DNA of 64,000 bases from Branchiostoma lanceolatum (lineage: Eukaryota; Chordata; Leptocardii; Amphioxiformes; Branchiostomatidae): assembly GCF_035083965.1 (NCBI RefSeq), contig NC_089723.1, forward strand, positions 22,051,193-22,115,192, read 5' to 3'. Positions 3,001-60,726 of this stretch are shown one piece after another (position 1 is the first letter of the stretch; each line of letters starts with the position of its first letter). A program made the translations under genes and the position numbers. The notes under the pieces were generated by a model. It ran no database searches, was not told where the DNA came from, and was given only the letters and a program-made list of their open reading frames with translations.

Positions 3001-6000
3001 TAAAGGTATTAAACAAAACGGTAAGTATTATTCATTTTAAGGTATGCAAGGCATACAAAGTCAATGGTAAGTACGTTGACGTCAAAATTACGTTATAGAG
3101 TGACGTCATGTGTTGTTAGCGATCCCTTGGGATCCGCCATCTTGGATCGGCCATTTTGAAATTTTTAAAAATCCTTTTTTTCCACTTATGACCCCAAAGG
3201 ACACTAAAAACGTTAATCGAAATGTTTCTGATAAAGAAAATGTCAGGTATTGACGATTTTAAAGGCAAAAAAGCCTGCTGATACCTGAAATAGTGATATA
3301 GTCCGCCATCTTGGATTTTGACTGATTACGTCATCAAATTAGCATAAATTATGAATATTAAATCAGGAAAGTTACATCTAATTACATATAATGTTATACA
3401 TGTGGGAAAACTAGTGTAGTTGTGCAAGAAAACCTGAGAAATATCATTGTTTTCCAAAAATTACTGATTTTTGCATAAAATGCCTTTTAGAAACCCGTTG
3501 CCATGGCAACATGAAAAATGATAAACTTTAACCATTAGTATAAAATTGTCCCCAAAAATTTTTTAGGAAAAGTCACCAAGTTTGGTAGTCTTAGCATACA
3601 TCGTTTTGCAGTAATACGATGTCAAAGTTGCCGCGGGCACTTTTAGCCCCCCCCCCCCCAGTCTGGATAGGGTTAATGTTTGGCATGTAGGTGATGAGAC
3701 CAAGAAACTACTAAAGATAGGGGGGCCCTAGTGACGTATTAAGATACTGCTGTGGAACTGTTGGCTTTGATATCTGGTGTTCTGGATATGCCCTTGTCGT
3801 GATTTTTGAGTGGTAGATAGCTCTTTGGGCCAAGAGGAATTGGTGTAGATGTAGAGCACCCCCCCCCGGCTTTTTTTAAAACTGAAAAATTTGAAAGAGA
3901 ATAGAATTAATCAAGAAGTGTTTGACGGATCGTCATGTCTTTTTCGTATGCAGATCGTGATTATTGATATGATCAAATTATTATTATGCAAACCAATTAG
4001 AACTAGAGTTCCACGAACACATTATCTTCGCCAAATAATCAAGGCTTATTGTGGAGAGTGATTAATATTTACATGTTTATCAACCCCTGCAAACTTGATC
4101 ATATACCATACCGTTTGAAAGTTATGATGGGGGGGGGGGATGAGTCCAGTCTAGATAGGGATAAAACTCATTTGGTGGTACAGGACTAGTATATGTGTAT
4201 AGTGTGCTGATATATGTTATAACTGGTCATCAAAAAAATTTAAAGTTATAATTAGATGGTACAGTCAATATATATGAATAGAATAAATCTTTATTCCATA
4301 TCGTACACATTTTGCAAGACATAGTACATGTTACTTTTCCATACGGTGCTAGGTAATACCTAGCAGTGTACTCTCTGAGCAGAGGAGTTGGTCCGGCTGG
4401 TTATTCACATGTTTTTAGGTGTTTTGTAAGGCTTTCTATTTTGTTCCCTTTCGGTTATGTCTCCAACCGTGTGTTTGACAAAAATGCAGAAACTGAACAC
4501 TTTAAAAAACCCGGACCCACACATCTGTTTGAATTGTAGTGAGACTGCCCCATTTGTTTATTTATGTACACCATCTGTTCATTTACACTTCTAGGCAAGG
4601 CCTTCTGCTGGCCTGTTTCGGGAATACTGTCACACGCCCCGTTATGGAATGTAAAGGATTTACAATTATCCTTACTAATCATGCAGATTAGCTCCTGTTT
4701 TCTATGATTAGACATCGATTGGGTAAAGCACCATCTAAGCTCTCTACATACAAAACTTCACGACAATCTTCTCACCCCTTCTCAAGTAATACGTGTCCGA
4801 ATGTCAAAACAAAAACACCCACTGCAGTTCTAAACAAGCCGCTAGGGGGCCCAAACTTACAGAACTTACTTCTTGTGGCATGAACTATCTACCACACAAA
4901 TATCATGACCATAGCACTTTCAGAAAATATGCCACTAAATTTTGAAGCTCCGCTGCAGTACCTTAGGTACTTGCTAGAAGGCCCATTATCGAACTTGACC
5001 TTCCTTTCCGTAAACCCTACCCATCCACTAAATATCATACAGATCCATCAACAGCTTCTTGAGTTATGTTGTCCACAAGAAAATACACATCCACACAAAG
5101 CCCACTGCAGTACCGACGGAAAATGCCAGGAGAACCATTTTTGAACTTGATCTCTGTTACCACAACATCTACACACCTGCAAAATATCATAAAGATCCAT
5201 CAGCGTTTCCGTCACTTTTTTCGCCTACATACAAACGCACAAAAATTAAAAGTCTGCTGCAGTACTGTTGAAAAGTTTGTTTTGTATATTTGCTTGGCAG
5301 GTAGCTCAGACCCGATCCCACTTTGCCTTTGGGTCGGTCGTCCACGCCAAGCAGATGCCAAGCAACAGTCACTACACAGACTTCTTCTTCAACTACTTCG
5401 AGTGGGCCGTTCTGGCCAACCAGCTCAAATGGAAGCAAAATGAAAGGAATGAAGTATGTTATTCCTTATCATATGTAGGTGCTTGAACGCATTAACTCCG
5501 GCCAGGGCTTATTTTTTGAGCTGAATTCATTAGAAGGTGTGAACACTATTGCAAGCAAGATACCTCTAAAAAGTGTGGATGTGAGAAATAGTTCCGATCA
5601 CGAAGATGCAAATGATATCATCACTTCTGAAGTTTTGCTGAATTTATTATGACAACACTCAAGTTATATCAACTCGATTGTCATGCAAACTATGACATAT
5701 TTACTAGCTGTTCGTATTGATTATTTGTTTCGTCTTAGGGACAGTTGACGTTCGACTGGGCAGATCCAACGATCGCGCTGCTTGAAAGTCGAGGGTGAGT
5801 TGTAATCCTATACTATAGTGGCATGGATATATACTCGTGTAAACAATAGCATGTCTTTGCGTATACACTCTTACAATGTGGAATCTTAACGAACTTATAG
5901 CAATTAAGATCACCGTTGACGTTACAAAAAAACTTGAGAGTAAGTTCACTACTTACTTTTCCATTTTTTGAAAACTTGTCTATTGCTACGGTCACAATTG

Positions 6001-9000
6001 GAAAAAAGGGCCAAGCCGTGAATAGTTTACGGGCTGTTTTTGTCACAATCGGGCGTAACCCCTAGCGGTGCTACTTTTGAAAAGCCTCAGAAGGAGGCAG
6101 CAGTTAGAGAACATGTTGCTAGGTTCAATGCTAGAGACATGGCAAACTAGAGGTATAGATTAGTTAATAACTTCTGCCAAGAATAGCATATACCGTTTTT
6201 TGTTGTTATAACTATACATCAGAACACCAATATTTTTCAGGCCGTTGACAAATTCATTGTACGCATTATGTGCCCATCTGCTATGCTGCATGTATAATAG
6301 TATGTAGGACAACAGTCCCTTCATGTACCACAAAGTATTATGACCAATATTTTGAGTTTTCTTTCCGTAGTTGATGTATATATGACAAAGTTCATTGTTT
6401 GACAAGTAAAGTTGACTGGTATTTTGCCAATCCCAAAAAGGGATGATATCTACATCATATATGACTATAGTTGATTGTACATATGACAAAGTTCATTGTT
6501 TGACAAGTAAAGTTGACTGGTATTTTTGCCAATCCCAAAAAGGGATGATATCTACATCAAATATGACTATAGTTGATTGTAAATATGACAAAGTTCATTG
6601 TTTGACAAGTAAAGTTGACCGGTATTTTGCCAATCCCAAAAAGGGATGATATCTACCTCATATATGACTATAGTTGATTGTACATGTGACAAAGTTTATT
6701 GTTTGACAAGTAAAGTTGACTGGTATTTTGCCAATCCCAAAAAGGGATGATATCTACCTCATACATGACTATAGTTGATTGTACATGTGACAAAGTTCAT
6801 TGTTTGACAAGTAAAGTTGACTGGTATTTTGCCAATCCCAAAAAGGGATGATATCTACCTCATACATGACTATAGTTGATTGTACATGTGACAAAGTTCA
6901 TTGTTTGACAAGTAAAGTTGACTGGTATTTTGCCAATCCCAAAAAGGGATGATATCTACCTCATGTATGACTATAGTTGATTGTACATGTGACAAAGTTC
7001 ATTGTTTGACAAGTAAAGTTGACTGGTATTTTGCCAATCCCAAAAAGGAATGATATCTACATCATATATGACTATAGTTGATTGTAAATATGACAAAGTT
7101 CATTGTTTGACAAGTAAAGTTGACTGGTATTTTTGCCAATCCCAAAAAGGGATGATATCTACATCATATATGACTATAGTTGATTGTACATGTGACAAAG
7201 TACATTGTTTGACAAGTAAAGTTGACTGGTATTTTGCCAATCCCCAAAAGGGATGATATCTACCTCATGTATGACTATAGTTGATTGTACATGTGACAAA
7301 GTTCATTGTTTGACAAGTAAAGTTGACTGGTATTTTGCCAATCCCAAAAAGGGATGATATCTACCTCATACATGACTATAGTTGATTGTACATGTGACAA
7401 AGTTCATTGTTTGACAAGTAAAGTTGACTGGTATTTTGCCAATCCCAAAAATGAATGATATCTACATCATATATGACTATAGTTGATTGTACATTTGACA
7501 AAGTTCATTGTTTGACAAGTAAATTTGACTGGTATTTTTGCCAATCCCAAAAAGGGATGATATCTACATCATATATGACTATAGTTGATTGTACATATGA
7601 CAAAGTTCATTGTTTGACAAGTAAAGTTGACTGGTATTTTGCCAATCCCCAAAAGGGATGATATCTACCTCATATATGACTATAGTTGATTGTACATGTG
7701 ACAAAGTTCATTGTTTGACAAGTAAAGTTGACTGGTATTTTGCCAATCCCAAAAAGGGATGATATCTACCTCATACATGACTACAGATGATTGTATATAT
7801 GACAAAGTTCATTGCTTGACAAGTAAAGTTGACTGGTATTTTTGCCAATCCCAAAAAGGAATGATATCTACCTCATACATGACTAAATGCTTACTTCATG
7901 GAAAACACTGGTTGTAGCAGTTATTAGTCCAAAACATACTAGTCGTCAGCTTCCCGAAAACCGGTGTAGTCAGCGGAGGGAAAGTGACTCCGTATGGCGG
8001 CCACAGCACAGGAGGGCAAAGGCACACGGACCGACTTGCCAAGGTGCTCGTAGCACCAGCGTACAAACTGTCTGTACGCTGTGTACCTCTTCCAGCTGAA
8101 AGGATGGAAAACAGTGTTGTTTATGAGGTAAATTTACACTTTTTAATCACATCGTATGAATGCATAGTAGATGTTACGCACATGATCATGTTATAATACA
8201 GGAAATTGTCATTTATTTGTTCATTGGTTCGGCTAAAACACAGACCGCAAAGGTTGCCCAACTACCTTATTCCACTCAGTATTTTTCATGTATTGTTTAT
8301 TGTTTGCGTACTCACTCATTTCCAAAGTTGACCGCGTGGTCCTCCCGGAGGGCAAGGTAGGCTGTTTCGAGGACATCCTCGCTCAGACACACTTGAGCAA
8401 AGCCGCGGTGCTGAGTGATGCAGACAACGCCGGGGTGCTTCTCTCTCCGCTCACACACACGCATCTGCTCGCGGCAGCATACGCTTTCCCTGACCGTCGG
8501 CCTGTTCACGCATCCCCCACAAGAGCACCTGAAAGGCCAAACCCCGAAACAAATTGAGAATAGTCTTGAAACTTGTAAAAACGTAATAAGAATGCGTTGA
8601 AAACACCGCGTTTCCTTGAACTGTCGGTAGTGACATAGAAGGTTGGAGTTATTTCCATATGCTAATTAACAGCGTGGGTCGCCATGTTGTTTACCTTGAT
8701 TTACAATAACAAGTTTTGGGCTATCTTTGTTGATATTTCATGTGTTACTTTCTTATTCTTTCATAAAGATGACCTAAGAGAGAATACGGATGAAGGTAGT
8801 TACAGGCATTGGCGGGCGACAAAGACCAGAAAATAATGACAGTGCCCCTTCATAAGTTGCTACACTCATCGCGAGGCGTGTGCACTTTCACCGGCATGTG
8901 ACGAAAAGGCTCAAAACATCGTAAATACCTCTCCCCAAATAGGCCATAGCATGTAATCTCCATCCTATCAGAAAAATGTAAGCAACAATATCTGAGCGTT

Positions 9001-11389
9001 ACTTACCATTCAGTATTTTGAAGCCTTTCGACATCCATAGGAATCTCGCCCGGAAATCCACCGCCTTGCGCGTCAACTTCACCGCCATGCCCGCCAGCGG
9101 CTCCGGGGTCGGCATCTTCGTCGCTGTCAGAATTCGCCTCATCCGACTGCTCATCCGACAGATACGGTTCGAATCTGTATGGTAAAAGGGCTCCTACGGC
9201 ATCCTCGGGTCCCGAGTCAGAGTCGATCTCCTCACAGACGCAGTCCTCGCTGGACGAGGAGTCAGAAAAGTTTTCCAGATCGTCCCTGTCCATGTTGTTG
9301 TGATTGCGAAACTAGCGCGCGGATAACGGGCCCAATGAGTGAGAGCCAGCCGGTTACGTCACGGCATCACGTGACCGCCGATGGAATTTTTTCGCCGCGG
9401 GCCCTCGAGCTTTCCAAGAACGACAACTTTGAGAAGCTGTATAAACTTTATTCATGGTCCAAATTGATTACAAGAACGTTCAACTAACTGCACTATAGGT
9501 ATATTTTTCATGTTTATATCTATTTCAGCTATTTTTCAATATGTCTGGCGCCCTTTAACTAGCTGTTCATATTGATTCTTTGTTTCGTCTTAGGGACAGT
9601 TGACGTTCGACTGGGCAGATCCAACGATCGCACTGCTTGTGAGTCGAGGGTGAGTTGTAATCCTATACTGTAGTGGCATGGATATGTACTCGTGTAAACA
9701 ATAGCATGTCTTTGCGTATACATTCTTACAATGTGAAATCTTAATGAACTTATAGCAATTAAGATCACCGTTTCCGTTAAAAAAAAACTTTGAGAGTAAG
9801 TTCACTATTTACTTTTCCATTTTTTTGAAAACTTGCTTATTGCTACGGTCACAATTGGAAAAAAGGGCCACGCCGCGAATAGTTTACGGGCTGTTTTTGG
9901 CACAATCGGGCGTAACCCCTAGCGGTCGGGATTATTTTCGTAAACTCAGAGTTTAAATAACTCCGGGACCTGGTAACAAATAGACGCCATAAGGTAATCG
10001 TGAGAGCACCGAGAAGTTCCCTTCTTCACCGGGACACATTTATGGCTTTAGGGGGCTACACTCCTTACGGGCACTGGTTCAAATGTGACTGAGGCATAAA
10101 CAGGGATTGTGAACAATGATATGCAAATATATGGTACACTTGTTTATGGTTGCTTTTGCTGATCTTTTTTCAACCATTGCCTGACCAGGATACCGATTCG
10201 CGGGCACAATGTGTTCTGGGGAACCGGGGACACCCATGTCCCCACCTGGCTGCCGGCGTACTCCGGGTCAGAGCTGGAGCAGAAGTGCTGGAAACGGGTT
10301 GATGACGTCGTGGGTCGGTATGCTGGGAGATAAACCCTTTTATTTGAATCATTTCACAATACACACAAGTATCATTAAGTACCATAAAGCCCCAGAACCA
10401 TTCTACCTGCATATGTCCTTAATATGAACGGGACTTGCCATGCTAGGTCAGGATTTACAAGCCACACAAGACGTGGTCCAGGGCCATGATACCTAGATAG
10501 TGGTATTCTCACCCCCTAGATAGAAGGAAGCCTACCACACACAAGCATTATTGAACTAATTCAACCTTCTGAGAACACTTAACAGAAAACCCTACTCTCG
10601 GAAATATGTCATAATCTTCACGATTTGATAAAAAGGGCACAATCTTCCCAACCAACCTCAGCTTCGAAAACACTGCATTGTACATCAGTCTTAATCAAAG
10701 GTCTTAATCTATTTTAGGGAGACGGGATCCGGATAAACTAAGACGTTCTGGTGCTATTTCGCACATTGTATTTTGAAGAAACGAAGCTTTTGCAACCATC
10801 TTCTCAAATCTAGCATCAAGATCAGACACTTGAGAATTTGCCACAAAGCTCATTATAAAGTATTATAATAATCGATTTGTGGGCAATATTCTCTTTCCTC
10901 ACGCTGTGCCAGGTTGCAGCATTGGGACATCAACAACGAGATGCTGCACGGAAACTTCTTCGTGGAGAAAACGGGAAACCCGCAGATCCGGTACGAGATG
11001 TTCCAGAAGGTGAAGGAGAAGGACCCTGGTGTCAAACTCTTCCTCAACGACTACGGTGTCATCAACAGTGGTGCGATGACACAGGTTCGTGGATCTAGTC
11101 TGCTACATTGTCTAATAATAAAAGTCATCCTTTTCTGACAACGATTGACTTACCTTTATCAGAGCATATTTGCATAGATATGGCGACGAAAAAAACCAAT
11201 ACTGCGTTGCATCTATCCGTCTGCTCTTTGATACGTAGCATCGAAGAGTACAAGTAAACATGGTTTATTTTGAAAATTCTGCCTTTCCTATATATACATT
11301 TGCTAATCATTTTAGAGTTACACATAAAGTTGTGTAACCAGCTTCTTATTAGTTGAGTGCCCAGTGCCTTGCACAGATCACGTGTAATC

Positions 11390-19599: not shown

Positions 19600-21140
19600 T
19601 ACAAAACATGGTATTAGGCATCAACAGATCCTTTCACTCCAAGCGAACTCAAAACAGTTCTGGGATCCCTCCCTGACAATAAATCTCCTGGTCTGGATAA
19701 TATCCCAGCCATCATCTGGAAAGACCCGGTTTTCAATGACCTTCTTTTACACCTGTGCAACCAAACATTTATGTATCACAGACCACCATCTTCCTGGCTT
19801 AAAGGAGGAATCGTTCCCATCCCCAAAAAAGGTGACCTAACATCTGCCTCCAACTATAGAGGTATTACTCTCACTCCCATTGCAGCAAAGGTGTATAACA
19901 GACTTTTACTTAATCGTCTTACCCCTGTAATTGATCCCATTCTTAGGAGGAATCAAAATGGATTCAGAAAAGGAAGGTCTACTATTTCACAGATTCTGGC
20001 AATACGTCGTATAATTGAGGAGATGAAGAGATGTAATAGGGATTTTGTACTGCTTTTCGTTGATTTTCGTAAGGCCTTTGATTCTATTAATAGAGATGAA
20101 ATGTTTGATATTCTAGCACAGTATGGTATTCCACAATGTTTTATAAAAGCAGTCAGGGCTTTGTATAGAAATACTCTAGCCTCCGTTATTACACCTGACG
20201 GTGAGACTAGTTCATTTGAGGTAGTTACAGGAGTTCTTCAGGGTGATACTTTAGCACCGTATTTGTTCATTATTGTACTTGACTATGTCTTAAGACTATC
20301 ATTAGATATAAATGAAAACAAAGGTATTGAAATCAAACCACGCAGGAGTCAAAGACACCCTGCCCAGTATCTTACTGATTTGGATTTTGCAGATGATCTT
20401 GCTCTAGTTGCTGAACTGATCAAAAATGCAGAAACTCTGCTACAATCCCTAGAAGAGTCTGCATCCCAAGTGGGGCTATATTGTAATGAATCTAAGACAG
20501 AATACATTAGCAACATCTCTGGAACACTTGAACTCAGATCCCTGTCTGGGACACTCATTGATAGAGTACATGATTTCAAATATCTTGGTTCTTACATTAT
20601 GTGCTCAAAGAAAGACCTTTAAATTAGAAAAGCCCTAGCATGGGAAGCAAGCAACAAGTTGGACAAAATATGGAAATCTAACATTCCTAACAAACTGAAG
20701 GTACAAGTTTTTCTTACCCTTGTGGAACCGATACTACTCTACGGTGCAGAAACTTGGACGCTTACCTGTCAGCTCCAAAACAGACTGGATGGGACCTATA
20801 CAAAGCTACTACGCAGGGCACAGAACATTTCTTGGACACAACACGCTACTCTCAAAACAATTTATGGAAGTCTTCCGCGGTTGTCTCAAAAGCTCACCCA
20901 CCGTCGTGTAACATTTGCTGGACACTGCTTTCGAGCCAAACAGCAAATAGTTTCGGACATCCTTCTATGGAAACCAAGAGGCCAAGTGCACAGCAGAAGT
21001 TTGACTTTTACCGATAGTTTAGTCAGAGACACTGGGCTTGCATATGAACACTTAGGACAAATGATGTTGGACAAGGCGATTTGGAGTGATGTATGTACTT
21101 ATTTAGTCCCGGCCGATGGCCGATAGATGATGATGATTAG
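19600..21140 (+). mobile_element. 5'-truncated LINE reverse-transcriptase fragment (RTE/CR1-like)
   Basis: A frame of about 500 codons with one in-frame TAA (20620-20622). RT blocks in order: NYRGITLTPIAAKVYNR, NQNGFRKGRST, FVDFRKAFDSI, QGDTLAPYLF, LDFADDLAL (catalytic Asp pair), then a C-terminal RRVTFAGHCFRAK region. There is no endonuclease or ORF1, so it is 5'-truncated. It ends in a short GATGATGATGATT run, as several LINE clades do. The copy in B (44198-45735) shares the same stop, so the insertion and its decay predate the duplication. It lies between IFa and IFb in the opposite orientation. Confidence 0.85.
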
Positions 21141-22914
21141 GCATAACTATGAAGTTGCTGGCGAACACTTGCCTGACTCAGTTGAGACAACGAACTACTG
21201 TAACAGCAACTGTTTTGCTGACTTGAAGACTGCGAGTCTCCAAAGTACTTTAACACAAGGTCTAAACACCTGAATAACTTTGACGTATGGTTGTTAACAT
21301 GGTTCCCAAATGTTTCTGGTCTCTATCCTTCATGATTTCCCTGCCTTGATATCATCTTCAAGAAGTTTCAAAGAAGTCAGAAAGTAAGACCGGTATAGCA
21401 TCAGATAATTAGTCAAGATGTCTGATATCTTGTACTGAGTACATGGATAATCATGAACCTGTTTATATGCCTTCTGTATGTATTTTGAGCCCTACAGACC
21501 CCATGATAGTAGTTCAAATTACTCAAAGCTATGTTAAAAACGGTATTCAATTGTTAAAGATGACTACTGATTGCTAGCTGTCGTCCTGGGTATGTTCTAT
21601 CATAATATATTAGGTTCTTGGTACTTTGCACATAAAACATAACGTATATCAACAACGTCTACTTTGACTTTAAGCATTTGGACTGGTACTGAGTTTTAAT
21701 ATATATTCTTGTGTCTTATGTAACGTATCTGTGTATGAATCCAGGGACACCTGAAAAACAGACCAAGGAACCTGGGTGTATATTCTTACCATACATTAAA
21801 GGAAAACGTTTTTTTCTGTTTGTCGTGCAAAAACCATGACCTGATTTTGTATTTCAATTTTATTGTCGGATATAGTCATACGTTTAAATGTATGGAAATC
21901 TTCATTGACACAACAAAAGTACAGCGACTTCCGTAAGGTCTTCTACAACTATACATGCATAGTTTTGTATGGTACTTCTAATTATGAAATTATCAGGAAA
22001 TCATATAGAAATCGAGTGAACGCAGCTTACATTTTTCAATGTTTTTATTCGTCAGTTGATAAAACAATTGCACAATGACAAGCACATGCTGATAACAAAA
22101 TAGTCGAAGTCGAAGTGTAACAGAGTTACGAATTCCATACTCGTTATTCTTCCAGTTGACTACCGGTCTCTGGTCAAAATGTGATACTGATTATCCATGT
22201 CGGTTGACTGGCTGATTTAGTAATGAAACCAAAAAATTCACATGGTAAGACCGACATTTGTCATAACTAAATATCTTTAACTACATAATTCGTAAATCCT
22301 TTACATATATCAACATCTTAAGCCGGTTCGTGCAATGCTTGTAAGCAAGTGCAGTTGCGAATGCAATGCTTGATTTACGTATCTTTGATACTTTTGTACT
22401 TTTGCCTTTCTTATGAACAATTATTGCGAAGACAATAGCTGTTTGTAATGATGAGGTCGAGTTGCCTAATGATGAAGTGTCGTTCGATTAGCATTAGCAA
22501 TGCGTTGATGTTCATTATCTTCGACTGTTACAGCTGTTGAAATTCAGCACACAATGTAGACATCTTGTTGGTTCAGTGATGTTCAATGGTTCAAGGATCT
22601 GGATGACCTGGGAGGCGATAAGTATGTGAATTAGACAATGAGAATGGCCATTCTCTAGTTGGTAAACTCTGACTGTTCATGTATCAATGTGTTCATGCCG
22701 AACCAATAAATAAATAAATAAGCTGTGTGACTGTGATTGTTGAGGTTCTGGACTGGATAGTCTTGGGTATGAGTATGCCGTATCGTCGATGCAAAAGGTG
22801 AAAGCACATTTTCCTAAGTCACTCTTTGATGTTCAAATACAAAAGTACTTTAATCATCGTTTTACTGACCTTCGCTTTATGTGAGAGTAGCTTTCTTCAG
22901 CAGCATGTACGGTA
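21141..22914. other. Intergenic region between LINE fragment and IFb
   Basis: No coding exon found. I searched this stretch specifically for an IF rod-end exon (LLEGEE-type) on the minus strand and saw none. Copy B has a 0.65 kb replacement here (46498-47150). Confidence 0.6.
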
Positions 22915-29600: not shown

Positions 29601-30441
29601 CGGGTTGTTAACGGGCTGTTTTTCACGGTGCGTTTCCGGGCGTGGCCCCGTGGAACCCCATGTGGCTACCGGGGTATTTTGGGGCACGGCCGGGCACTGT
29701 TTGATTTTAACTTCCCACAACCTCTACGGGCACGGTGACCGTAGCATTCCAGCAATATTCCACTCGGGCGGCGACCTCTGAGCTTTATTACACATCTCTT
29801 AACGCATTTCATATATTAAAAACGAATCTTTTTTACGTTTTGTGTGTTTATTGTGTTTTCAGTCCACTGTAGTATGAAATCAGAGAGAAAGTAAATAAAT
29901 TATGTGTCTTCTTCACTAGACCGGGTCCCTTGAGACGAACATCGCGGAGACAGAGGCCCGCCGTCTGAAGGAGATTGAGGAGTACAAGCTGGCGATCGGC
30001 GAGCTGGAGCAGCAGATCGAGAAGATGAAGCTGGAGATGACGCAGCACACCGTGGAGTACCAGGAGCTCATGAACATCAAGATGGCGCTGGACGTGGAGA
30101 TAGCGGCCTACAGGAAGCTGCTGGAAGGGGAGGAGTTGAGGTGGGGTTATTTTCGTAATAACAATGACCTTTATCACATGAATATTCAATCTCAATATGG
30201 GCTAATGTTGACATATTTGGATCTTATAGAATCTGAAAAGACTTATGCTCAGAAAATAGAATCTATATCGCCATCGTAAACGCCCATCGCTATTCATATT
30301 GTAAACACTCATTTCTTGCAATTTTCTTGTTTGAATGATTTCCACTACACAGGCTCTTCAGCGAAGCCCAACCAAAACGTCAAACGTGAGGTCAGCAGCC
30401 AGGTGAGGCGTGAAGTCACGATGGAAATCAAGTCCAGCTAG
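26699..30441 (+). CDS. Intermediate filament protein IFc, copy A (~361 aa)
   Basis: Cytoplasmic IF subunit. Exons: 26699-27072, 27265-27325, 27893-27988, 28705-28875, 29419-29544, 29920-30140, and a tail exon from 30353. Lengths 61, 96, 171, 126, 221 equal those of IFa. Head about 40 residues; helix start [15 protein letters not shown]; rod end [19 protein letters not shown]. With the conserved donor at 30140 the tail is [12 protein letters not shown] (stop 30387-30389). A second frame of the same exon is open to a TAG at 30439-30441 and ends [15 protein letters not shown], which looks more like an IF tail; it could be reached by a different acceptor. The start codon context is AACGCCATGG, close to Kozak. 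AATAAA at 30564-30569 and 30596-30601. Confidence 0.92.
28025..28330. repeat. Fold-back (long inverted repeat) element in an IFc intron
   Basis: Left arm 28025-28142 and right arm about 28210-28330 are inverse copies: both carry TGAATAGCAAAGT, AAGAGCCGACGTTTCGATG, GCCATCTTCATCA-type and CTGACTGGTTCACT blocks. A loop of about 65 bp lies between. Present in copy B at 63196-63500. Decayed relatives at 170-350 and 31614-31795. Confidence 0.8.
28913..29100. repeat. Dispersed repeat (GGGCTGTTTTT family), IFc intron 4
   Basis: Shares AAAAAGGGGCCCC, TTTACGGGC, GGGCGTGACCCC and GGGACCTGGTGACGAATTGA blocks with 9838-10020. Confidence 0.5.
29570..29870. repeat. Dispersed repeats, IFc intron 5
   Basis: 29570-29700 is another copy of the same family (GGAAAAAGGGGCCCCGACGG, GTTAACGGGCTGTTTTTC). 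29795-29870 is a fragment of the GC-rich TIR family (AAAAACGAATC, GTTTTGTGTG, GTTTTCAGTC). Confidence 0.5.
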
Positions 30442-30601: not shown

Positions 30602-31259
30602 CATTTGCTTTGGTAGACCATGACCTAGTGCTATTGTCAATGAATGATTTTTCTTCTTCATTTATGAACTGGAGATAGACATTCGAGAGGTAGCCTTACT
30701 ATGCTACGGTCACAATGGGAAAAAGTGTGGCGATTAAAAATTATTGCCGTAGCGAAAGTGTCTGGGTTGATCTTACTGTCATGTAAGGAAAGTATCAACT
30801 TAGCACTTATAGTTCTGCCATAATATTTGTTCAAATCGCACTTAGAAATCAGAGAGGCCTCTGCCAAGTTTTTTGAGTCAACAGAGGTTTTGTTGGTGGG
30901 AGGCATGATGTTCAGCACGTTCTTGAGATAATAGATCAACTGGGGTAGGTTGAAAACCCTTTTCAAAGCTAGAATACTAGATTCGGTGCCCTGAGAACTC
31001 CCTGACACACTCCCACCAGTACGAAATCGGAAACCACTTAAGTAGGTCATCTGTCATCGACCTGCGTGCTGGGATGCCAGACCGTGCTAAAGAAGGTATA
31101 GAGTGACAGGCGGGCGGACGGATTCCATACATTCCTGTGCAATTCTGGGAATTCTTGTAAACGGGCGTAAAATATACTATTAAGCTCGCTCTTAAAGGGC
31201 GCCAGACATTTGGAGATAACTTAGTCTTATCATATGTAACAATAGTATTATTATTATTA
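30602..31259. other. Junction region between the two copies; unidentified minus-strand frame
   Basis: The join between copies A and B falls here. A minus-strand frame of 130 codons (31050-30658) contains LKRVFNLPQLIYYLKNVLNI and NLAEASLISKCDLNKYYGRT. I do not recognise it and cannot tell a gene remnant from chance. A CTACGGTCACAATGGGAAAAA fragment of the dispersed family lies at 30702. No 5' GH10 exon was identified. Confidence 0.3.
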
Positions 31260-31295
31260 ACAAGGCTAGAAGAGCAACATGTTATCACCCTTAAG

Positions 31296-34200: not shown

Positions 34201-37200
34201 TCGTTTGAAGATATGTATGCCAAACATGGGAATGTAATCCTTTAAATATTTGTTCAGGCCACATATACAGCAAATTTCAGGTCATTCGGTTGAAATACCA
34301 GGGCGCAGGAGGCCAAGATATGCTAAAAATAGCCTAAAAACCTCAATAAAATCACTTTCAAGGTCAATATCAAAAAAAGGAAAAGAACGCACATTGGTTT
34401 TTGCCTACATTACCTCTGTACCAAATTTCAGGTCATTTGGTCAAAAAATGACAGATGAATCGATTTGAAGATTTGACAGGAGGAGGAGGAGAAGAAGAAA
34501 CATGAGTAAAAACAATATGTTTAGCCATACTAGGTATGGCTAAACATAATTAATTTTTTTGTATATTTGCTTGGCAGGTAGCTCAGACCCGATCCCACTT
34601 TGCCTTTGGGTCGGTCGTCCACGCCAAGCAGATGCCAAGCAACAGTCACCACACAGACTTCTTCTTCAACAACTTCGAGTGGGCCGTTCTGGCCAACCAG
34701 CTCAAATGGAAGCAAAATGAAAGGAATGAAGTATGTTATTCCTTATCATATGTAGGTGCTTGAACGCATTAACTCCGGACAGGGCTTGTTTTTTGAGCTG
34801 AATTCATTAGAAGGTGTGAACACTATTGCAAGCAAGATACCTGTAAAAAGTGTGGATGTGAGAAATAGTTCCGATCACGAAGATGCAAATGATATCATCA
34901 CTTCTGAAGTTTTGCTGAAGCTATTATGACAACACTCAAGTTATATCAACTCGATTGTCATGCAAACTATGACATATTAACTAGCTGTTCATATTGATTC
35001 TTTGTTTCGTCTTAGGGACAGTTGACGTTCGACTGGGCAGATCCAACGATCGCACTGCTTGAAAGTCGAGGGTGAGTTGTAATCCTATACTATAGTGGCA
35101 TGGATATGTACGCGCGTAAACAGTAGCATGTCTTTGCGTATACATTCTTACAATGTGAAATCTTAACGAACTTATAGCAATTAAGATCACCGGTGGCGTT
35201 ACAAAAAAACTTGAGAGTAAGTTCACTACTTACCTTTCCATTTTTTGAAAACTTGTTTATTGCTACGGTCACAATTGGAAAAAAGGGCCACGCCGCGAAT
35301 AGTTTACGGGCTGTTTTTGGCACAATCGGGCGTAACCCCTAGCGGTCGGGATTATTTTCGTAAACTCAGAGTTTAAATAACCCCGGGACCTGGTAACAAA
35401 TAGACACCATAAGGTAATCGTGAGAGCACCGAGAGGTTCCCTTCTCCACCGGGACACATTTATGGCTTTAGGGGGCCACACCCCTTACGGGCACTGGTGC
35501 AAATGTGACTGAGGCATAAACAGGGATGGTGAACAATAATATGCAAGTATATGGTACACTTGTTTATCGTTGCTTTTGCTGATCGTTTTTCAACTATTGC
35601 CTGACCAGGATACCGATTCGCGGGCACAATGTGTTCTGGGGAACCGGAGACTCTCATGTCCCCACCTGGTTGCCGGCGTACTCCGGGTCAGAGCTGGAGC
35701 AGAAGTGCTGGAAACGGGTTGATGACGTCGTGGGTCGGTATGCTGGGAGGTAAACCTTTTTATTTCAATCATTTCACAATACACACAAGTATCATTAAGT
35801 ACCATTAAGCCCCAGAACCATTCTACCTGTATATGTCCTTAATATGAACGTGACTTGCCATGCTAGGTCAGGATTTACAAGTCACACAAGACGTGGTCCA
35901 GGGCCATGATACAAAGATAGTGATATCCTCACCCCCCTGGATGGAAGGACGCCTACCACACACAAGCATTATTGAACTAATTCAACCTTCTGAGAACACT
36001 TAACAGAAAACCCTACTCCCGAAAATATGTCATAATCTTCACGATTTGATAAAAAGGGCACCATCTTCCCAACCAACCTCAGCTTCGAAAACACTGCATT
36101 GTACATCAGTCTTAATCAAAGGTCTAAATCTATTTTAGGGAGACGGGATCCGGATAAACTAAGACGTTCTGGTGCTATTTCACACATTGTATTTTGAAGA
36201 AACGAAGCTTTTGCAACCATCTTCTCAAATCTAGCATCAAGATCAGACACTTGAGAATTTGCCACAAAGCTCATTATAAAGTATCATATTAATCGATTTG
36301 TGGGCAATATTTTCTTTCCTCACGCTGTGCCAGGTTGCAACATTGGGACATCAACAACGAGATGCTGCACGGAAACTTCTTCGTGGAGAAAACGGGAAAC
36401 CCGCAGATCCGGTACGACATGTTCCAGAAGGTGAAGGAGAAGGACCCTGGTGTCAAACTCTTCTTGAACGACTACGGTGTCATCAACAGTGGTGCGATGA
36501 CACAGGTCAGTGGATCTAGTCTGCAACGTTGTCTAATAATCAAAGTCATCCTTTTCTGGCAACGATTGAATACCTTTATCACAGCATATTTGCATAGACA
36601 TGGCGACGGAAAAAATCAATACTATGTTGCATCCATCCGTCTGCTCCTTAATACGTAGCATCGAAAAAATACAAGTAAACATGGTTTATTTTGAAAATTC
36701 TGCATTTTCTATACATTTGCTAATCGTTTTAAAGTTACACAGGGAGTTGTGTAACCAGCTTGTTAGTAATTGAGTGCCCAGTACCTTGCACAGATCATGT
36801 GTAATCTTTTATATAATATATATAATATGTGTATATACATTTAAAAGAAAATGTAAAGCCTGAGTATGCATGCAAGAAATAAACGATGGTCATCATTGTG
36901 TTTTCCACAGGCCTACGTGCACCAGGCTGAGGAGTTCCTCGCTAACGGAGCTCCAGTCGACGCGATCGGAGCTCAGGGACACTTCAAAAGCCGACCAGAC
37001 CCCGTCCTTCTTAAGGCACTGTTACGATATCATAACCTTTGGAAATTTTCCTTGACCTTGCAATGGATTTAGAGAAGCACCAATACTTATCAACATATAC
37101 ACCAACGATTGCCTTTTAGGTATTTTCATATTGATGTACGTTTAAATTTATGATCTTCCAAATATACAGCAAATACAATTCATCATCTAAAATGGTTAAT

Positions 37201-44197: not shown

Positions 44198-45738
44198 TAC
44201 AAAACATGGTATTAGGCATCAACAGATCCTTTCACTCCAAGCGAACTCAAAACAGTTCTGGGATCCCTCCCTGACAATAAATCTCCTGGTCTGGATGATA
44301 TCCCAGCCATCATCTGGAAAGACCCGGTTTTCAATGACCTTCTTTTACACCTGTGCAACCAAACATTTATTTATCACAGACCACCATCTTCCTGGCTTAA
44401 AGGAGGAATCGTTCCCATCCCCAAAAAAGGTGACCTAACATCTGCCTCCAACTATAGAGGTATTACTCTCACTCCCATTGCAGCAAAGGTGTATAACAGA
44501 CTTTTACTTAATCGTCTTACCCCTGTAATTGATCCCATTCTTAGGAGGAATCAAAATGGATTCAGAAAAGGAAGGTCTACTATTTCACAGATTCTGGCAA
44601 TACGTCGTATAATTGAGGAGATGAAGAGATGTAATAGGGATTTTGTACTGCTTTTCGTTGATTTTCGTAAGGCCTTTGATTCTATTAATAGAGATGTATT
44701 GTTTGATATTCTAGCACAGTATGGTATTCCACAATGTTTTATAAAAGCAGTCAGAGCTTTGTATAGAAATACTCTAGCCTCCGTTATTACACCTGACGGT
44801 GAGACTAGTTCATTTGAGATAGTTACAGGAGTTCTTCAGGGTGATACTTGAGCACCGTATTTGTTCATTATTGTACTTGACTATGTCTTAAGACTATCAT
44901 TAGATATAAATGAAAACAAAGGTATTGAAATCAAACCACGCAGGAGTCAAAGACGCCCTGCCCAGTATCTTACTGATTTGGATTTTGCAGATGATCTTGC
45001 TCTAGTTGCTGAACTGATCAAAAATGCAGAAACTCTGCTACAATCCCTAGAAGAGTCTGCATCCCAAGTGGGGCTATATTGTAATGAATCTAAGACAGAA
45101 TACATTAGCAACATCTCTGGAACACTTGAACTCAGATCCCTGTCTGGGACACTCATTCATAGAGTACATGATTTCAAATATCTTGGTTCTTACATTATGT
45201 GCTCAAAGAAAGACCTTTAAATTAGAAAAGCCCTAGCATAGGAAGCAAGCAACAAGTTGGACAAAATATGGAAATCTAACATTCCTAACAAACTGAAGGT
45301 ACAAGTTTTTCTTACCCTTGTGGAACCGATACTACTCTACGGTGCAGAAACTTGGACGCTTACCTGTCAGCTCCAAAACAGACTGGATGGGACCTATACA
45401 AAGCTACTACGCAGGGCACAGAACATTTCTTGGACACAACACGCTACTCTCAAAACAATTTATGGAAGTCTTCCGCGGTTGTCTCAAAAGCTCACCCACC
45501 GTCGTGTAACATTTGCTGGACACTGCTTTCGAGCCAAACAGCAAATAGTTTCGGACATCCTTCTATGGAAACCAAGAGGCCAAGTGCACAGCAGAAGTTT
45601 GACTTTTACCGATAGTTTAGTCAGAGACACTGGGATTGCATATGAACACTTAGGACAAATGATGTTGGACAAGGCGATTTGGAGTGATGTATGTACTTAT
45701 TTAGTCCCGGCCGATGGCCGATAGATGATGATGATTAG
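44198..45738 (+). mobile_element. LINE reverse-transcriptase fragment, copy B
   Basis: Same truncated element as at 19600-21140, about 99% identical, with the shared in-frame stop (45218-45220) and one more stop of its own after QGDT (44849-44851). Ends in the same GATGATGATGATT run. Confidence 0.85.
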
Positions 45739-54119: not shown

Positions 54120-54594
54120 TTTGGTTTGACTTGATTCGACCGTAGCTTCTTCTTATCTTTTGTGGCTAGTGTAAGGCCACCAATGAAGAGGTTTTGGCGC
54201 ACTGCTGCCTTTTACTGAAAACTTCTGCCAGAGATATTACTCTGCAGCTAGACTGTTTTTTTTTTTTTTTTTCTTTATTGTTCTTTATTATATTTTCACT
54301 GATAAATATAACAATCACACAACAGAAAATGAAGAACCTCCCTTAAATATTGACCTATCCAAGTCTAACAGCCACATTGTAAACTTAACAGCTCATATAA
54401 TATGATTATTATTATGTCATTACTAACGTTATTCATATTGGTTATCAAGTCATTACATATCATTTTATCACATTACATATCATCTTTTCATATAAGCATT
54501 GTATCATTACTCGCATAATCATTTCAGTATTGTAATCAAATATCATTATCATGTCATTTCTATATTCTTTCATGATTATTTCTACATTTCAAAA

Positions 54595-57500
54595 TCAAAT
54601 TAAACACAAAGTTCCCCACTTACCCCGATGCTTCTCCAGCTTCCCTCTCCGAGATGCAATGAGACGTTCAGTTTTTTCAAAAGTAGATATTAGTCTTTTA
54701 AAGGCCTGGAAGTTTATTATTTTTAAGCGTCTACACCGGAAGATAAAAACTTTACCTAACAAAATAATCAGATTTTTCAGGGGGGGCGCATCGTTACATG
54801 TATCTCCAAATATGATAATAAAGGAATTTAGGTAGCACTCTATAGAAGTTTCTACTTTCAACCAATTTTTTACATCGTTCCAAAATGATACTACATGCGG
54901 ACACTCCCAGAAAATATGAATATAGGATTCTACATCGTCATGACAGAAAGAACAAGAGCTAGAGTCTATTAATTTCCATATATATAGAATTTTGTTACAA
55001 GGTAAAAATTTATTAATTAATCGGTATTGAAAATATCTAGTACTTGGATCAATAGTACATCTATATAAGTTTGTAAATACATCTCGCCATGGTATAGGTT
55101 TGTCAAAATAATAGAACCACAAAAGTCTAGTATTGTGTGCAAGGCTGACCTCGTTCATGGACGTAAGAAAGTAGATATACATGCTTTTATTGATTTTTAT
55201 ATTTCGTAACCATTTATAATTTTTTTGAAAGGGCAGGCACACAAGGTCTTTACGCTTCTCAGTACTAAGTAGTTTTTTCCATTTACCGGGAATAGCTGAA
55301 ATAAGCTGTAGATATCTATGTTGGTCACAAGCATTTGGGAAATTTGTACTGAATTCATCATAAGACATAAAATTGCCGTCCGGGGACAGCAAGTCATTTA
55401 TGAAATATATATTCCTATTCATAAAAGCTGTCAAACAAACAGTTTTACCATCAATAATAATATTAGAGTTTAAACAAATTACTTGTTGTCGTATATTTGC
55501 CGGCGTCGTGGGCTCTACGTACTGAAATTGAAACCAGGACATAAAAACTTCAGAAAAAAATCCTTTTAAACAAAGGTTTATCACCGAGGACAGCTGGTAA
55601 AAAGGAAATAAACTATGATTAAGTTGAGGATGGAAGACTGTTACCCAGGAGGAAAACCATTCGGGATGAGAATAAAGTTTAGGTACCCATGAAGCTTTTA
55701 TAGAAGTGTTGAACGCGCGTAAGTTTTTTAAGTTTAGTCCTCCATTTTCCGATGTATTGTATAAAACCCTCCGTGCAACTCGTTCAGGACCGTTGTCCCA
55801 AATAAAAGAAAATATCTTCTTTTCATATACTTTGAAAAAGGAATCGTTAGGGGATGGTAAGACTTGAAATAGATTTGTAAATTGGGGAACCACCAAAGTG
55901 TTAATAATAACAATTTTACCATACAGGGACAGATATTTATTCTTCATAGGTCGCAATAGTCTATCTAATCTCTCCAATCGGGGTTCGAAATTAACACTTG
56001 TAATTAAATTTAAATCAACGGGAATATTGATACCCAGTAGGTCAACATCCCCGTCAACCCACTGTATCGGTAGATGAGTGGGCAAACGAAAATTCGTGGA
56101 TTTTAAGGGACCTAATCGTAATATTTTGCATTTATCTACATTCAAAGAAAGACCTGAGATATTGGAAAAACGCTCTAAATCAGACAACAAGGCATAAAAT
56201 GATTCTAGCTTTGGTTCGAATGGAAAATTTGAATCGTCGGCGTACTGCGATATCTTTGTAATCTTTTCATATATCTTTAAGCCCCGAATAGAAGGATTGG
56301 ATCTAATCTTAATAGCAAGAATCTCAACCGCCATGAGAAAAAGATATGGGGACAATGGACATCCTTGGCGAACTCCGCGACTTAAAATGAAGGGGTCTGA
56401 AATATAACCGCTGTTTATGACGCAACTCGTTGTTTTTTCATATAAGACCTTTACCCATGTAATTAACTGTGGACCAAAATTGAAAAATTCTAAAGCTTTA
56501 AACATAAAATCCCACCTTAACGTATCAAATGCTTTTTTAAAATCAGCTACAAATATTAACCCAGGTTTACTCTCTTGATCGTAATGTTCTATTGTGTCTA
56601 TTAGTCTTCTAATATTGTCGCCTATATACCTATCCTTAATAAACCCTGTCTGATCCTGTTCAATTATGTCCGTAATTACATGTTTGATTCTCAAAGATAT
56701 GCATTTGGAAAGTATTCTTGTGTCACAACCTAAAAGGGTAAGGGGGCGCCAATTCCCCATGGCAGTTGGGTCCTTGTCTATACCTTTACTGTCTTTTTTG
56801 AGTAGCAATGAAATAAGTCCTTTTCTTTGAGTTTCTGAGAGACATCCATTACCAAATGAATAATTAAAACATGTTAACATTGGTTTTTTAAAGACATCAA
56901 AAAAAATCTTATAGACTTCTATAGGTATTCCATCAATCCCTGGTGATTTCCCAGCCTGAAATGAATGTATTGCATTTTTCAATTCTTCTTCGGTTATTAG
57001 ACCTTCACAAAGTTGCTGTTGCTCATCTGATAAACGTTTACCATAGTCATCGGGGAAAAAACCATCACAATTTACATCAGAAAGAGGCATTGGAATATCT
57101 TCAAAAGAGTACAGTTCAGAATAAAAATTAACCTGATCAGAAAGAATATCTTTAGGGTTAGAAATTACCTCCCCAGAGGGCCTTTTGAGTCGTTGTATAT
57201 TTTTTCTTGTATAATTACGGTGGATTAGATTTATAAAATATTTAGTGCACTTTTCCCCCAGCTCCATCCAACGTGATTTTGACCTTAACAAGATACCATT
57301 AAGACGTTCATTATATAAAGATTCTAATAAATTTTGTTTATAAATTAATTCATCTAGTTGGGCGGGTGGGGGAGAGGCGACACTATCAATTTGACTCTGC
57401 AACATATTAATTTCGTCAATCAGTTCTTTTTCTTTCATCAGGTATTGTTTTTTCCTCCAGCTACTAAATTTAATACAGTGACCACGAAAAAAGCACTTTG

Positions 57501-58371
57501 CCATATCCCAGACAATTTGAGGATTTGCGGTGTTGACGTTATTTCTAAAAAATTCTGACATAATTTGTTTGGTCTGTACAAGAAAAAGTTTGTCATCAAG
57601 AAGGGATTGATTAAATTGCCAGTAGCCAGGCCCTCGTGGGAAATCCGCCGTAACAAAAGACAAGGTGATTAAATTGTGATCAGATCTAAATTTGTCTGCA
57701 ATAGAACACTTAGTAACTCTGTTTAATAATGAAAAGGATATCAGAAAATAATCTAGCCTACTAGCGTAGAGCCCCCGGCGCCATGTATACCGAACAACAT
57801 TAGGGTTTCTAAAACGCCACACATCATGCAAGTCGAATTTTCCTTTTAGCTCCGAAATAGCTTCTAGTGCGTTCGGGTGATAATTTCGAAGTCGAGCACC
57901 TGATCTATCCATGGCTGAATTCTGCACTGTATTAAAATCTCCCACCACAACTAAATGTTCATTACTAATCTCAAATGTATCTATAGCTTCTTCTAATTCC
58001 TTAAAAAAGGACGGACAGTCATCATTTGGAGCATATAAGTTCACAAGACAGAAATGTAAATTATCTACCTCGATGTCTAACACAATCCACCGTCCACTTT
58101 CATCCGTTTTAACCTGATTAACCTGAACGCTGGCGCTACTCTTTATCAAAATAGCAACCCCTCTTTGATTTGAAGTACCATGGGAGAAATATATTTGTCC
58201 ACCCCATTCGTTCTGCCATCTTTTTTCATCACTTACAGTTGTATGTGTTTCTTGTATACAATATAAGTGGTAAGGTTTGTCACTTAACCAGGTAAAAAGT
58301 CCCATTCGCTTGTGAAAATCCCCCAGCCCATTACAATTGTAACTAGAAATCCGACACTCTACCTTAGACAT
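54595..58371 (-). CDS. L1-type ORF2: endonuclease / reverse transcriptase (1258 aa)
   Basis: Nicks the target DNA and reverse-transcribes the element RNA. The N-terminal apurinic-type endonuclease has YNCNG (residues 11-15), QETH (40-43), GDFNTV (144-149), SRLDYF and SDHN (230-233). The reverse transcriptase follows: GIDGIPIEVYK, DQTGFIKDRYIGDN, FVADFKKAFDTL, RGVRQGCPLSPYLF and the catalytic QYADDS (YADD at 710-713). The C terminus has a CSFCHDD...H...CP cysteine-histidine cluster starting near residue 1140, as in the L1/Tx1 group. No interruption in 1258 codons. The start lies 13 nt inside the preceding small frame. Confidence 0.95.
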   Translation of the reverse strand: MSKVECRISSYNCNGLGDFHKRMGLFTWLSDKPYHLYCIQETHTTVSDEKRWQNEWGGQIYFSHGTSNQRGVAILIKSSASVQVNQVKTDESGRWIVLDIEVDNLHFCLVNLYAPNDDCPSFFKELEEAIDTFEISNEHLVVVGDFNTVQNSAMDRSGARLRNYHPNALEAISELKGKFDLHDVWRFRNPNVVRYTWRRGLYASRLDYFLISFSLLNRVTKCSIADKFRSDHNLITLSFVTADFPRGPGYWQFNQSLLDDKLFLVQTKQIMSEFFRNNVNTANPQIVWDMAKCFFRGHCIKFSSWRKKQYLMKEKELIDEINMLQSQIDSVASPPPAQLDELIYKQNLLESLYNERLNGILLRSKSRWMELGEKCTKYFINLIHRNYTRKNIQRLKRPSGEVISNPKDILSDQVNFYSELYSFEDIPMPLSDVNCDGFFPDDYGKRLSDEQQQLCEGLITEEELKNAIHSFQAGKSPGIDGIPIEVYKIFFDVFKKPMLTCFNYSFGNGCLSETQRKGLISLLLKKDSKGIDKDPTAMGNWRPLTLLGCDTRILSKCISLRIKHVITDIIEQDQTGFIKDRYIGDNIRRLIDTIEHYDQESKPGLIFVADFKKAFDTLRWDFMFKALEFFNFGPQLITWVKVLYEKTTSCVINSGYISDPFILSRGVRQGCPLSPYLFLMAVEILAIKIRSNPSIRGLKIYEKITKISQYADDSNFPFEPKLESFYALLSDLERFSNISGLSLNVDKCKILRLGPLKSTNFRLPTHLPIQWVDGDVDLLGINIPVDLNLITSVNFEPRLERLDRLLRPMKNKYLSLYGKIVIINTLVVPQFTNLFQVLPSPNDSFFKVYEKKIFSFIWDNGPERVARRVLYNTSENGGLNLKNLRAFNTSIKASWVPKLYSHPEWFSSWVTVFHPQLNHSLFPFYQLSSVINLCLKGFFSEVFMSWFQFQYVEPTTPANIRQQVICLNSNIIIDGKTVCLTAFMNRNIYFINDLLSPDGNFMSYDEFSTNFPNACDQHRYLQLISAIPGKWKKLLSTEKRKDLVCLPFQKNYKWLRNIKINKSMYIYFLTSMNEVSLAHNTRLLWFYYFDKPIPWRDVFTNLYRCTIDPSTRYFQYRLINKFLPCNKILYIWKLIDSSSCSFCHDDVESYIHIFWECPHVVSFWNDVKNWLKVETSIECYLNSFIIIFGDTCNDAPPLKNLIILLGKVFIFRCRRLKIINFQAFKRLISTFEKTERLIASRRGKLEKHRGKWGTLCLI

Positions 58372-59685
58372 GTTGATGATATTCTCTGGGAGTTAAAACT
58401 TCTCGGAGAGGAAAGCTGGGTCAGGTCATCGGAGCACAGGATTCTCTCAGGTGATACTGCTGGTACATAACTATAAGTAAAATAAACTTGGGGAACCATC
58501 AAACATAAGCATAAAAATGTAAAGCAATGAAAATGAATCAGAATAAAGATAATAGTAACAAAATAACAGAACAATTCATACAATGATTCAAGTGAACTCA
58601 ATTGCAAAATCATAAATTTGTAACCATAAATCGCGCAATAAGAGGCAATATGAACAAAAATCATAACTGGTGTTAGCTCAGTCATGGTTACCATAGCAAC
58701 CGCTATGAACTCAATGTGAACGAGATGAAGGGTAACGTCACGAACCAGAAATCGAGTTAGCTTGATAACAAAAATGAACTCAATATCAATATCGATTAAG
58801 TAGAAACAATAAAGTGCCAACATAAATTAGTGTTCAGTTCAACAGTGGTTGCCAAAATAACAGGAACCAATTCAGTAATAATCAAGCAAGTAACAACAAA
58901 ATCATGAGACATAACTTGTGTTAGCTTAGAGTTGGTAGCTATAGTAGATGATATAAAATCAATATGAATCAAACAAAAGCCATGTAAGAAATGATACATA
59001 TCGGCTTGAGTTGAATTAATTATAGCTGGAACATCAGTAGGAATTAAATCAGTATAAGTCAAAAGAGAAATAACCATAACATAAAACTTATTAAGGGTGG
59101 CCATGAATACTACAAAAGGGAGGTCTTCATAATAACACCAAAAAATAAACAGACAGACAGACAGGGTATCAGCTACCCTGTATAACAAAAGAATATACAT
59201 AATGGTATACAACTGAGAATCCAAGATCATTTTCTTTTTCCGGTGGTATCTGGGCATTCGCTCCATTATAATTAATCGTTTTAAGTCCAGAGGAGCAAAA
59301 TGTCAATAACAAGCACAACAAAAATAACTATTCGGGTCAAAAACAATATCATTTCCATTCCCATGCAAACTAAACAGAATAAGTATTTAATCCTGTATGT
59401 TAATGTCAGAATCATTGGACAAGAACGGATTTAGAACAGAAATAAATCAAAGATATAACTTAACACAAGTCAGTCACAGCGTGACATGAGAACGAAGGAC
59501 AATAATAACAAATCAGCCCCTATGGCCAAGAAACACTGTTTTACACCTGTCAAAAATTCTTCAGACACACTTTGTGGAGATAACAACATTTTAATGCAAA
59601 TCCGTCTCCGCCGTCCAGAAGACATTGCTCATGCATGGTTCATCAGGTGGGCTAAATCAATCATGTTGAGTCATTCAAGTTCATT
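58372..59685 (-). other. L1 inter-ORF region with two overlapping hydrophobic frames
   Basis: 1.3 kb separates ORF1 and ORF2. It holds two minus-strand frames of 156 codons (59266-58796) and 154 codons (58823-58359), which overlap each other by 28 nt; the second overlaps ORF2 by 13 nt. Both are hydrophobic. They resemble each other (LIHIDFISSTIATNSKLTQV versus LVHIEFIAVAMVTMTELTPV), because the DNA is a diverged tandem repeat of about 240 bp. Whether they are translated is unknown. Confidence 0.4.
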
Positions 59686-60579: not shown

Positions 60580-60726
60580 TCAGCAGTGAAGTCTAGACGT
60601 AGCAGAAATACTGTTTCCAAAAAATGAGGACCGCCTGCACACTTTAGAAGCTCGGACAGGTAACAAACTCTCGGAGCTGCCCGACTCACGTCACTCTATC
60701 GCCGCCATCTTGGATCACCCAACTAT
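60580..60726 (-). promoter_or_regulatory. L1 5' UTR with YY1-like site
   Basis: Reads on the minus strand GGGTGATCCAAGATGGCGGC then GATAGAGTGACGTGAG. CCAAGATGGCGGC fits the YY1 consensus and lies within the first 30 nt of the element; GTGACGTGAG resembles a CRE half site. Human L1 also has a YY1 site near its first bases. Confidence 0.5.

Follow-up and report, generated by a model that had tools for sequence, protein, structure and literature searches.

Nested antisense within a Glyco_hydro_10 (GH10) gene of the amphioxus Branchiostoma lanceolatum, in the 64,000-nucleotide stretch of contig NC_089723.1 analysed here (the window), is a short stand-alone gene for a protein of the P2X7 ballast-domain family. 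It lies on an insert that occupies one copy of a large direct repeat (copy A), the corresponding site in the other (copy B) being empty, and the right end of the insert is a transposon-like terminus abutting a TTAA (Table 1). An earlier note on this DNA had described the gene, and that observation itself is confirmed; the reading built on it is partly supported, and the transposon-like end of the insert, TTAA plus a terminus common to 31192–31209, had been missed.

Table 1 Features of the insert, its flanks and related sites (positions in the window; a dot marks features without strand).
Feature	Position	Strand	Remarks
D1, additional copy of the right flank (370 bp)	5700..6069	.	Starts TTTA where the target site reads TTAA; holds the 56-bp GH10 exon 5739–5794
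Whole insert	6070..9554	.	3485 bp; present in copy A, absent from copy B; left terminus missing
Internal minisatellite	6368..7885	.	15 copies of a 101-bp unit with 95% matches; on the 3' side of the ballast gene
KolX-like (ballast) gene, exon 3	7939..8095	-	Closes the ballast domain (AYRQFVRW...LPSC...IRSHFP...YTGF) and contains the stop; AG acceptor
KolX-like gene, exon 2	8316..8528	-	...CSCGGC...VCC...VVCIT..., first part of the ballast domain; AG acceptor, GT donor, phase 2
KolX-like gene, exon 1	9007..9293	-	ATG to GT donor, phase 2; acidic N-terminal region
GC-rich, CpG-rich stretch upstream of the ATG	9294..9440	-	Promoter-like by pattern only: CACGTG, TGACGTAA, ATTGG
Right terminus of the element	9540..9554	-	Inward AGGGCGCCAGACATA (5'-RR); 14/14 bases after TTAA also at 31196–31209
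TTAA target site, right junction	9555..9558	.	Homology with copy B begins here
D2, flank copy following the insert on the right (372 bp)	9555..9926	.	Contains GH10 exon 9594–9649
Second TTAA-bounded sequence	31192..31294	+	Same left terminus (TTAA AGGGCGCCAGACAT...); candidate miniature inverted-repeat transposable element (MITE) of ~95 bp
Empty site, copy B	34977..35346	.	One TTAA, one 370-bp segment

The ballast gene is composed of three exons on the minus strand, and splicing of 9293–9007, 8528–8316 and 8095–7939 gives 657 nt in one frame from ATG to stop, encoding 218 amino acids; both introns (8529–9006 and 8096–8315) are GT–AG and in phase 2, so that the complete three-exon protein with matching phases that the earlier note had proposed holds. 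The spliced protein matches the Pfam profile PF20478 (P2RX7_C) over residues 89–214 (E 4.9e-15, 56.4 bits, against a curated cut-off of 23.5 bits), which bears out its assignment to the P2X7 cytoplasmic-domain family, and four distinct P2X7 sequences of the PDB are matched with E-values from 1.6e-7 to 9.1e-7. By itself the exon-2 stretch scores 14.2 bits against the profile; the match thus requires the spliced product, in support of the exon joins. PF20478 is the sole domain found by Pfam profile search in the 218 residues, no P2X channel domain being detected, as the absence of a channel had been noted.

Preceding most of the ballast domain is a strongly acidic region (residues 1–90, with 28 D+E and 3 K+R by charge counts). 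The seven motif cysteines are kept (C97, C99, C102, C113, C114, C132 and C196), and the three clusters WCxCx2C, CC...CIT and PSC are all present. From the published consensus of stand-alone domains (PxWCxCx2C, LCC...CIT and PSC...IR..FP...Y(S/T)G; PMC7016195) the protein departs in the absent leading P, the V that replaces L before CC and the A after PSC, and in spacing, the CC-to-CIT stretch being longer and the last spacing shorter. By tblastn the gene is in one copy in the window, in agreement with the earlier claim. Searches with this single query protein, whose reach is limited to close relatives, gave 6 pattern matches in viral contigs and 66 in bacterial and archaeal genomes, none of them confirmed.

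The window, free of Ns, is filled by a direct repeat of at least about 31 kb, to which copies A and B belong; they represent either a tandem duplication or uncollapsed haplotypes, both in one contig. Flanking the insert, identity between the two copies is 98.1% on the left (415/423) and 95.0% on the right (1393/1467 aligned). At the right junction there are 0 identical bases directly left of TTAA between the insert and copy B, and homology resumes exactly at TTAA. Of the 3.5-kb insert with a 360-bp direct duplication described before, both insert and repeat stand, with sizes revised to 3485 bp and to 370 and 372 bp. Comparison of the insert with the rest of the window, covering 6070–6367 and 7886–9554 and leaving out the minisatellite, gave a single inverted self-match, 25 bases long, and a single 32-base match, at 22688–22719 (84%, E 0.002). 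The minisatellite has a higher-order period of ~405 bp and hardly any CpG (observed/expected ratio 0.02).

The GH10 exons, as joined here, match PF00331 at E 2e-35, and the ballast gene is located between them in antisense orientation, as claimed. The TTAA target site is 39 bp ahead of a 56-bp GH10 exon, which is present on both sides of the insert, in D1 and in D2. The GH10 frame is kept with either exon copy and broken when both are spliced in, so a working transcript should use one copy. The D1 exon encodes the same GH10 peptide as copy B, and the D2 exon has a missense change (E to V) plus an internal GTGAGT; at a guess, the D1 exon may therefore be the one in use by GH10.

From the right junction inward, the sequence starts with TTAA AGGGCGCCAGACATATTG. 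This terminus, TTAA followed by AGGGCGCCAGACAT, recurs on the plus strand at 31192–31209 with 18/18 bases, for which the chance expectation is about 1.4e-6 over both strands (first-order Markov estimate). Among 636 TTAA-anchored 20-mers the 31192 site, at 15.5, scores best after the element itself, followed by a site overlapping it (8.0) and one at 7.5. The terminus begins with AG and is thus of the 5'-RR type, and the ballast gene is 261 bp away from it. A further TTAA closes the stretch 31192–31294, which might represent a non-autonomous element of small size; the score of its right end, 6.5, does not rise above background. This candidate MITE lies a short way ahead of a reading frame that extends into copy B.

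Kolobok DNA transposons of the Kol0 lineage encode as their second protein KolX, which has the ballast fold and seven conserved cysteines (Kojima and Bao 2022, PMC9587614), and the marks given there for a Kol0-type Kolobok are a TTAA target, a 5'-RR terminus and this accessory protein. The same work sets the 5'-RR ends of Kolobok against piggyBac, of which a few elements bear a ballast relative without most of the cysteines, and regards nanor as a probable domesticated KolX and P2X7 as the product of a fusion with KolX. Ten full-length Xenopus Kolobok copies all end in AG, Kolobok is known from Branchiostoma floridae, and amplified internal repeats occur, as they do in the present insert, in T2-MITEs, which are presumed to belong to Kolobok (PMC6004289).

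Each of these marks has a counterpart at the locus. TTAA is found at the right border and at the empty site, the left border reading TTTA and being set off from the element by D1; the right end is AG; and the ballast fold and seven cysteines are given by the profile match and the motif, set beside the published description of KolX. A ballast gene with all seven cysteines near a TTAA/AG terminus is what the KolX claim of PMC9587614 predicts. We infer that the insert belongs to Kolobok and consider it probable that the gene is KolX on a truncated Kol0-type element, whose left-end loss and copying repair made the present structure. The landing of a transposon would explain why copy A has the gene and copy B does not: the presence in A and absence from B seen before stand, and transposon cargo explains them better than the host presence/absence gene then proposed.

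Several observations weigh against this assignment. The likeness between the insert end and the 31192 site stops after 18 bases, and the 15-base terminus, with 3 mismatches allowed, has 2 matches, a number reached by 20 of 100 shuffles; this mismatch-tolerant count is uninformative, and the weight rests on the exact 18-base match. RR follows TTAA in 199 of 636 cases, which makes the 5'-RR rule weak on its own. Likeness of the terminus to published Xenopus Kolobok ends, at 9/16, is not above background and was discarded as evidence, 9 or more being reached by 62 of the 636 TTAA-anchored 16-mers. The left terminus is absent: the sole TTAA in 6000–6500 is at 6164, without the terminus sequence, exact inverted matches between 5900–6500 and 9250–9700 reach 8 bases at most, with none at 6070, and of the 25 inverted pairs listed out of 104, none has an arm at 9540–9554. 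The pair of terminal inverted repeats that is a mark of Kolobok was not found in the insert, and with its left terminus missing the insert is at best a truncated member. Nor was a DDD/E transposase found: all 7 stop-free stretches of at least 90 amino acids (of 19 of at least 60) plus two short ones were scanned across the insert, with no Pfam match except P2RX7_C. Absence of the transposase is expected of a non-autonomous copy. An attempt to read the 370-bp repeat as the terminal direct repeats of KolobokP (~450 or ~660 bp) was rejected; the repeat is flank with a GH10 exon and is single in copy B.

On the transposon reading, the ancestor of copy A would have taken up a Kol0-type element at a TTAA, copy B retaining the empty site. 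The left end of the element would have been lost afterwards, most likely through incomplete repair of a cut at that end, in which the left chromosome end, terminating in TTAA, would copy about 370 bp of flank from a partner with an empty site, whether homologue, sister or tandem copy. Ligation of the copied flank to what remained of the element's interior would give the order left flank, D1, truncated element, TTAA, D2, and would account for the start of D1 at the target site. The outcome would be a one-terminus copy in which KolX stays open and retains its upstream region, with the GH10 exon now present twice. KolX itself would probably work in the nucleus as a zinc-stabilised partner of the transposase, binding protein or DNA; with no transposase found beside it, the gene here would be a leftover or a stray source of KolX acting in trans. 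Both the order of events and the repair route are inferred from the present arrangement. As a further point against the assignment, D1, D2 and copy B are about equally diverged (20, 17 and 14 substitutions per 370 columns for D1–D2, D1–B and D2–B), which leaves the order of events undated.

The same near-equal divergence, together with the capacity of 370-bp direct repeats to delete the DNA between them, would also suit a copy B that formerly had the insert and lost it through recombination between the repeats. Such a loss is compatible with a truncated Kolobok element in copy A; over the initial 80 columns of the alignment, however, copy B equals D2 at four positions where D1 differs, TTAA included, which would confine the crossover to the first few bases, and we regard the loss as quite improbable.

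A long direct repeat at both sides of an insert is also what repair of a staggered break leaves behind, so that the gene might instead be a nanor/ZCD-type host gene, anciently transposon-derived, that was copied into GH10 by segmental duplication or as filler DNA in such repair, with the 370-bp repeat as the filled-in overhang and the border TTAA as chance. The absent left terminus and the failure to find a transposase in the stretches of the insert scanned would fit this origin. So would the distribution of stand-alone ZCD genes, which occur in many animals at fewer than 10 per species, with some neighbours common among invertebrates; those of sponge, mollusc, arthropod and echinoderm share neighbouring markers (Rump et al., PMC7016195), an indication that part of these genes are established in their hosts, and one that counts against a transposon origin here as well. 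In the text of that paper no word starting with 'transpos' occurs. Against a filler origin, the right-border terminus recurs beside another TTAA, precisely at the TTAA homology to the empty site picks up again, and synteny around nanor genes is not conserved even among bony fish (PMC7016195), as would be the case for mobile genes. On balance we consider it unlikely.

The intact open reading frame (ORF) and splice sites, and a promoter-like stretch upstream, would be expected if a KolX of transposon origin were now kept by the host under its own promoter, and in Xenopus Kolobok transposases are reported to have been domesticated several times. The 147 bp upstream of the ATG are 56% GC with a CpG observed/expected ratio of 1.41; the earlier claim of an own GC-rich promoter thus holds for composition and extends to a promoter-like character by pattern only, CACGTG, TGACGTAA and ATTGG having been found by pattern match without a chance control. 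In 4000 neutral-drift simulations at 2.75% divergence, with substitutions only, the frame stayed open in half of the runs, so the open frame is no proof of use and selection is not demonstrated by the simulation. With no AATAAA or ATTAAA within 1.2 kb past the stop codon, and the gene absent from copy B, domestication appears very unlikely.

An extension of the transposon reading is that KolX-only elements, composed of termini, KolX and a promoter without a transposase, form a mobile family moved in trans, which we put forward tentatively and think somewhat unlikely. If true, such a family would account for the uneven distribution of stand-alone ballast genes among animals; one of these genes would have become the tail of P2X7, and a by-product of the family's mobility would be the duplication of exons beside insertions, such as the spare GH10 exon.

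A single locus thus shows a stand-alone P2X7-tail gene beside an empty site and a transposon-like terminus, and lends DNA-level support to the published view of the ballast domain as transposon cargo. It also advises caution, as 'P2X7-like' gene models of invertebrates may be transposon genes, and the flank duplication hands the host GH10 gene a spare exon. Among the titles and abstract openings listed by literature searches on ballast domains and P2X7, KolX, Kolobok and amphioxus, none describes such an insert.

The direct repeat, divided at 1–31444 and 31445–64000 (~31 to 35 kb), takes in the GH10 gene as well as one of the intermediate-filament type (PF00038 at 29920–30276), and identity between the copies ranges by segment from 82 to 98.7% (matches of at least 150 bp, plus strand only). 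Within a part of copy B that has no match in copy A in this comparison (54263–60726) is a stop-free stretch of 1265 amino acids (54598–58392) with endonuclease and reverse transcriptase domains of the non-LTR (long terminal repeat) retrotransposon type. Reverse transcriptase frames also lie at corresponding places of the two copies (19618–20619 and 44216–44848), that of copy B stopping earlier.

Compared with the P2X7 receptor, the 218-residue protein has neither the P2X channel nor the anchor region; it shares with the P2X7 ballast domain (PF20478) the match at residues 89–214 and the cysteine clusters. From CC to CIT it has 11 residues more than the P2X7 chain, and the equivalent of I568 is P192; C113–C114 were paired with C498–C499 of that chain by motif, the aligner having paired the CC cluster otherwise. 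Five residues of rat P2X7 contact guanosine diphosphate (GDP), namely R546, H547, R574, R578 and K583 (PMC7016195). In the alignment with the PDB chain, R546 and R578 correspond to R170 and R202, and H547, R574 and K583 to Y, V and S, so that with 2/5 contacts kept the rat GDP site is not fully retained; other invertebrate ballast members likewise lack the full site (PMC7016195).

Closer in architecture are the nanor/ZCD proteins (Rump et al. 2020, PMC7016195; PTHR36981 according to that paper), which are short, with a variable N-terminus, a C-terminal Zn-cysteine domain and no channel, and for one of which, zebrafish nanor, a role in transcription regulation is hypothesised there; the gene described here differs in sitting on an insert with a transposon-like end. 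The T2-MITE and Xstir elements of Xenopus (PMC6004289) are presumed non-autonomous MITEs, likened here by description: the TTAA target, an AGG-type end and a tandemly amplified internal segment are common to both, the AGGRR motif agreeing in 4/5 letters (AGGGC). Compared with the Kol0 Kolobok elements that carry KolX (PMC9587614), the insert is without a detected transposase or left terminus and has a 101-bp minisatellite and a duplicated flank, and the two are alike in the ballast fold family, the seven cysteines, the TTAA target and the 5'-RR end.

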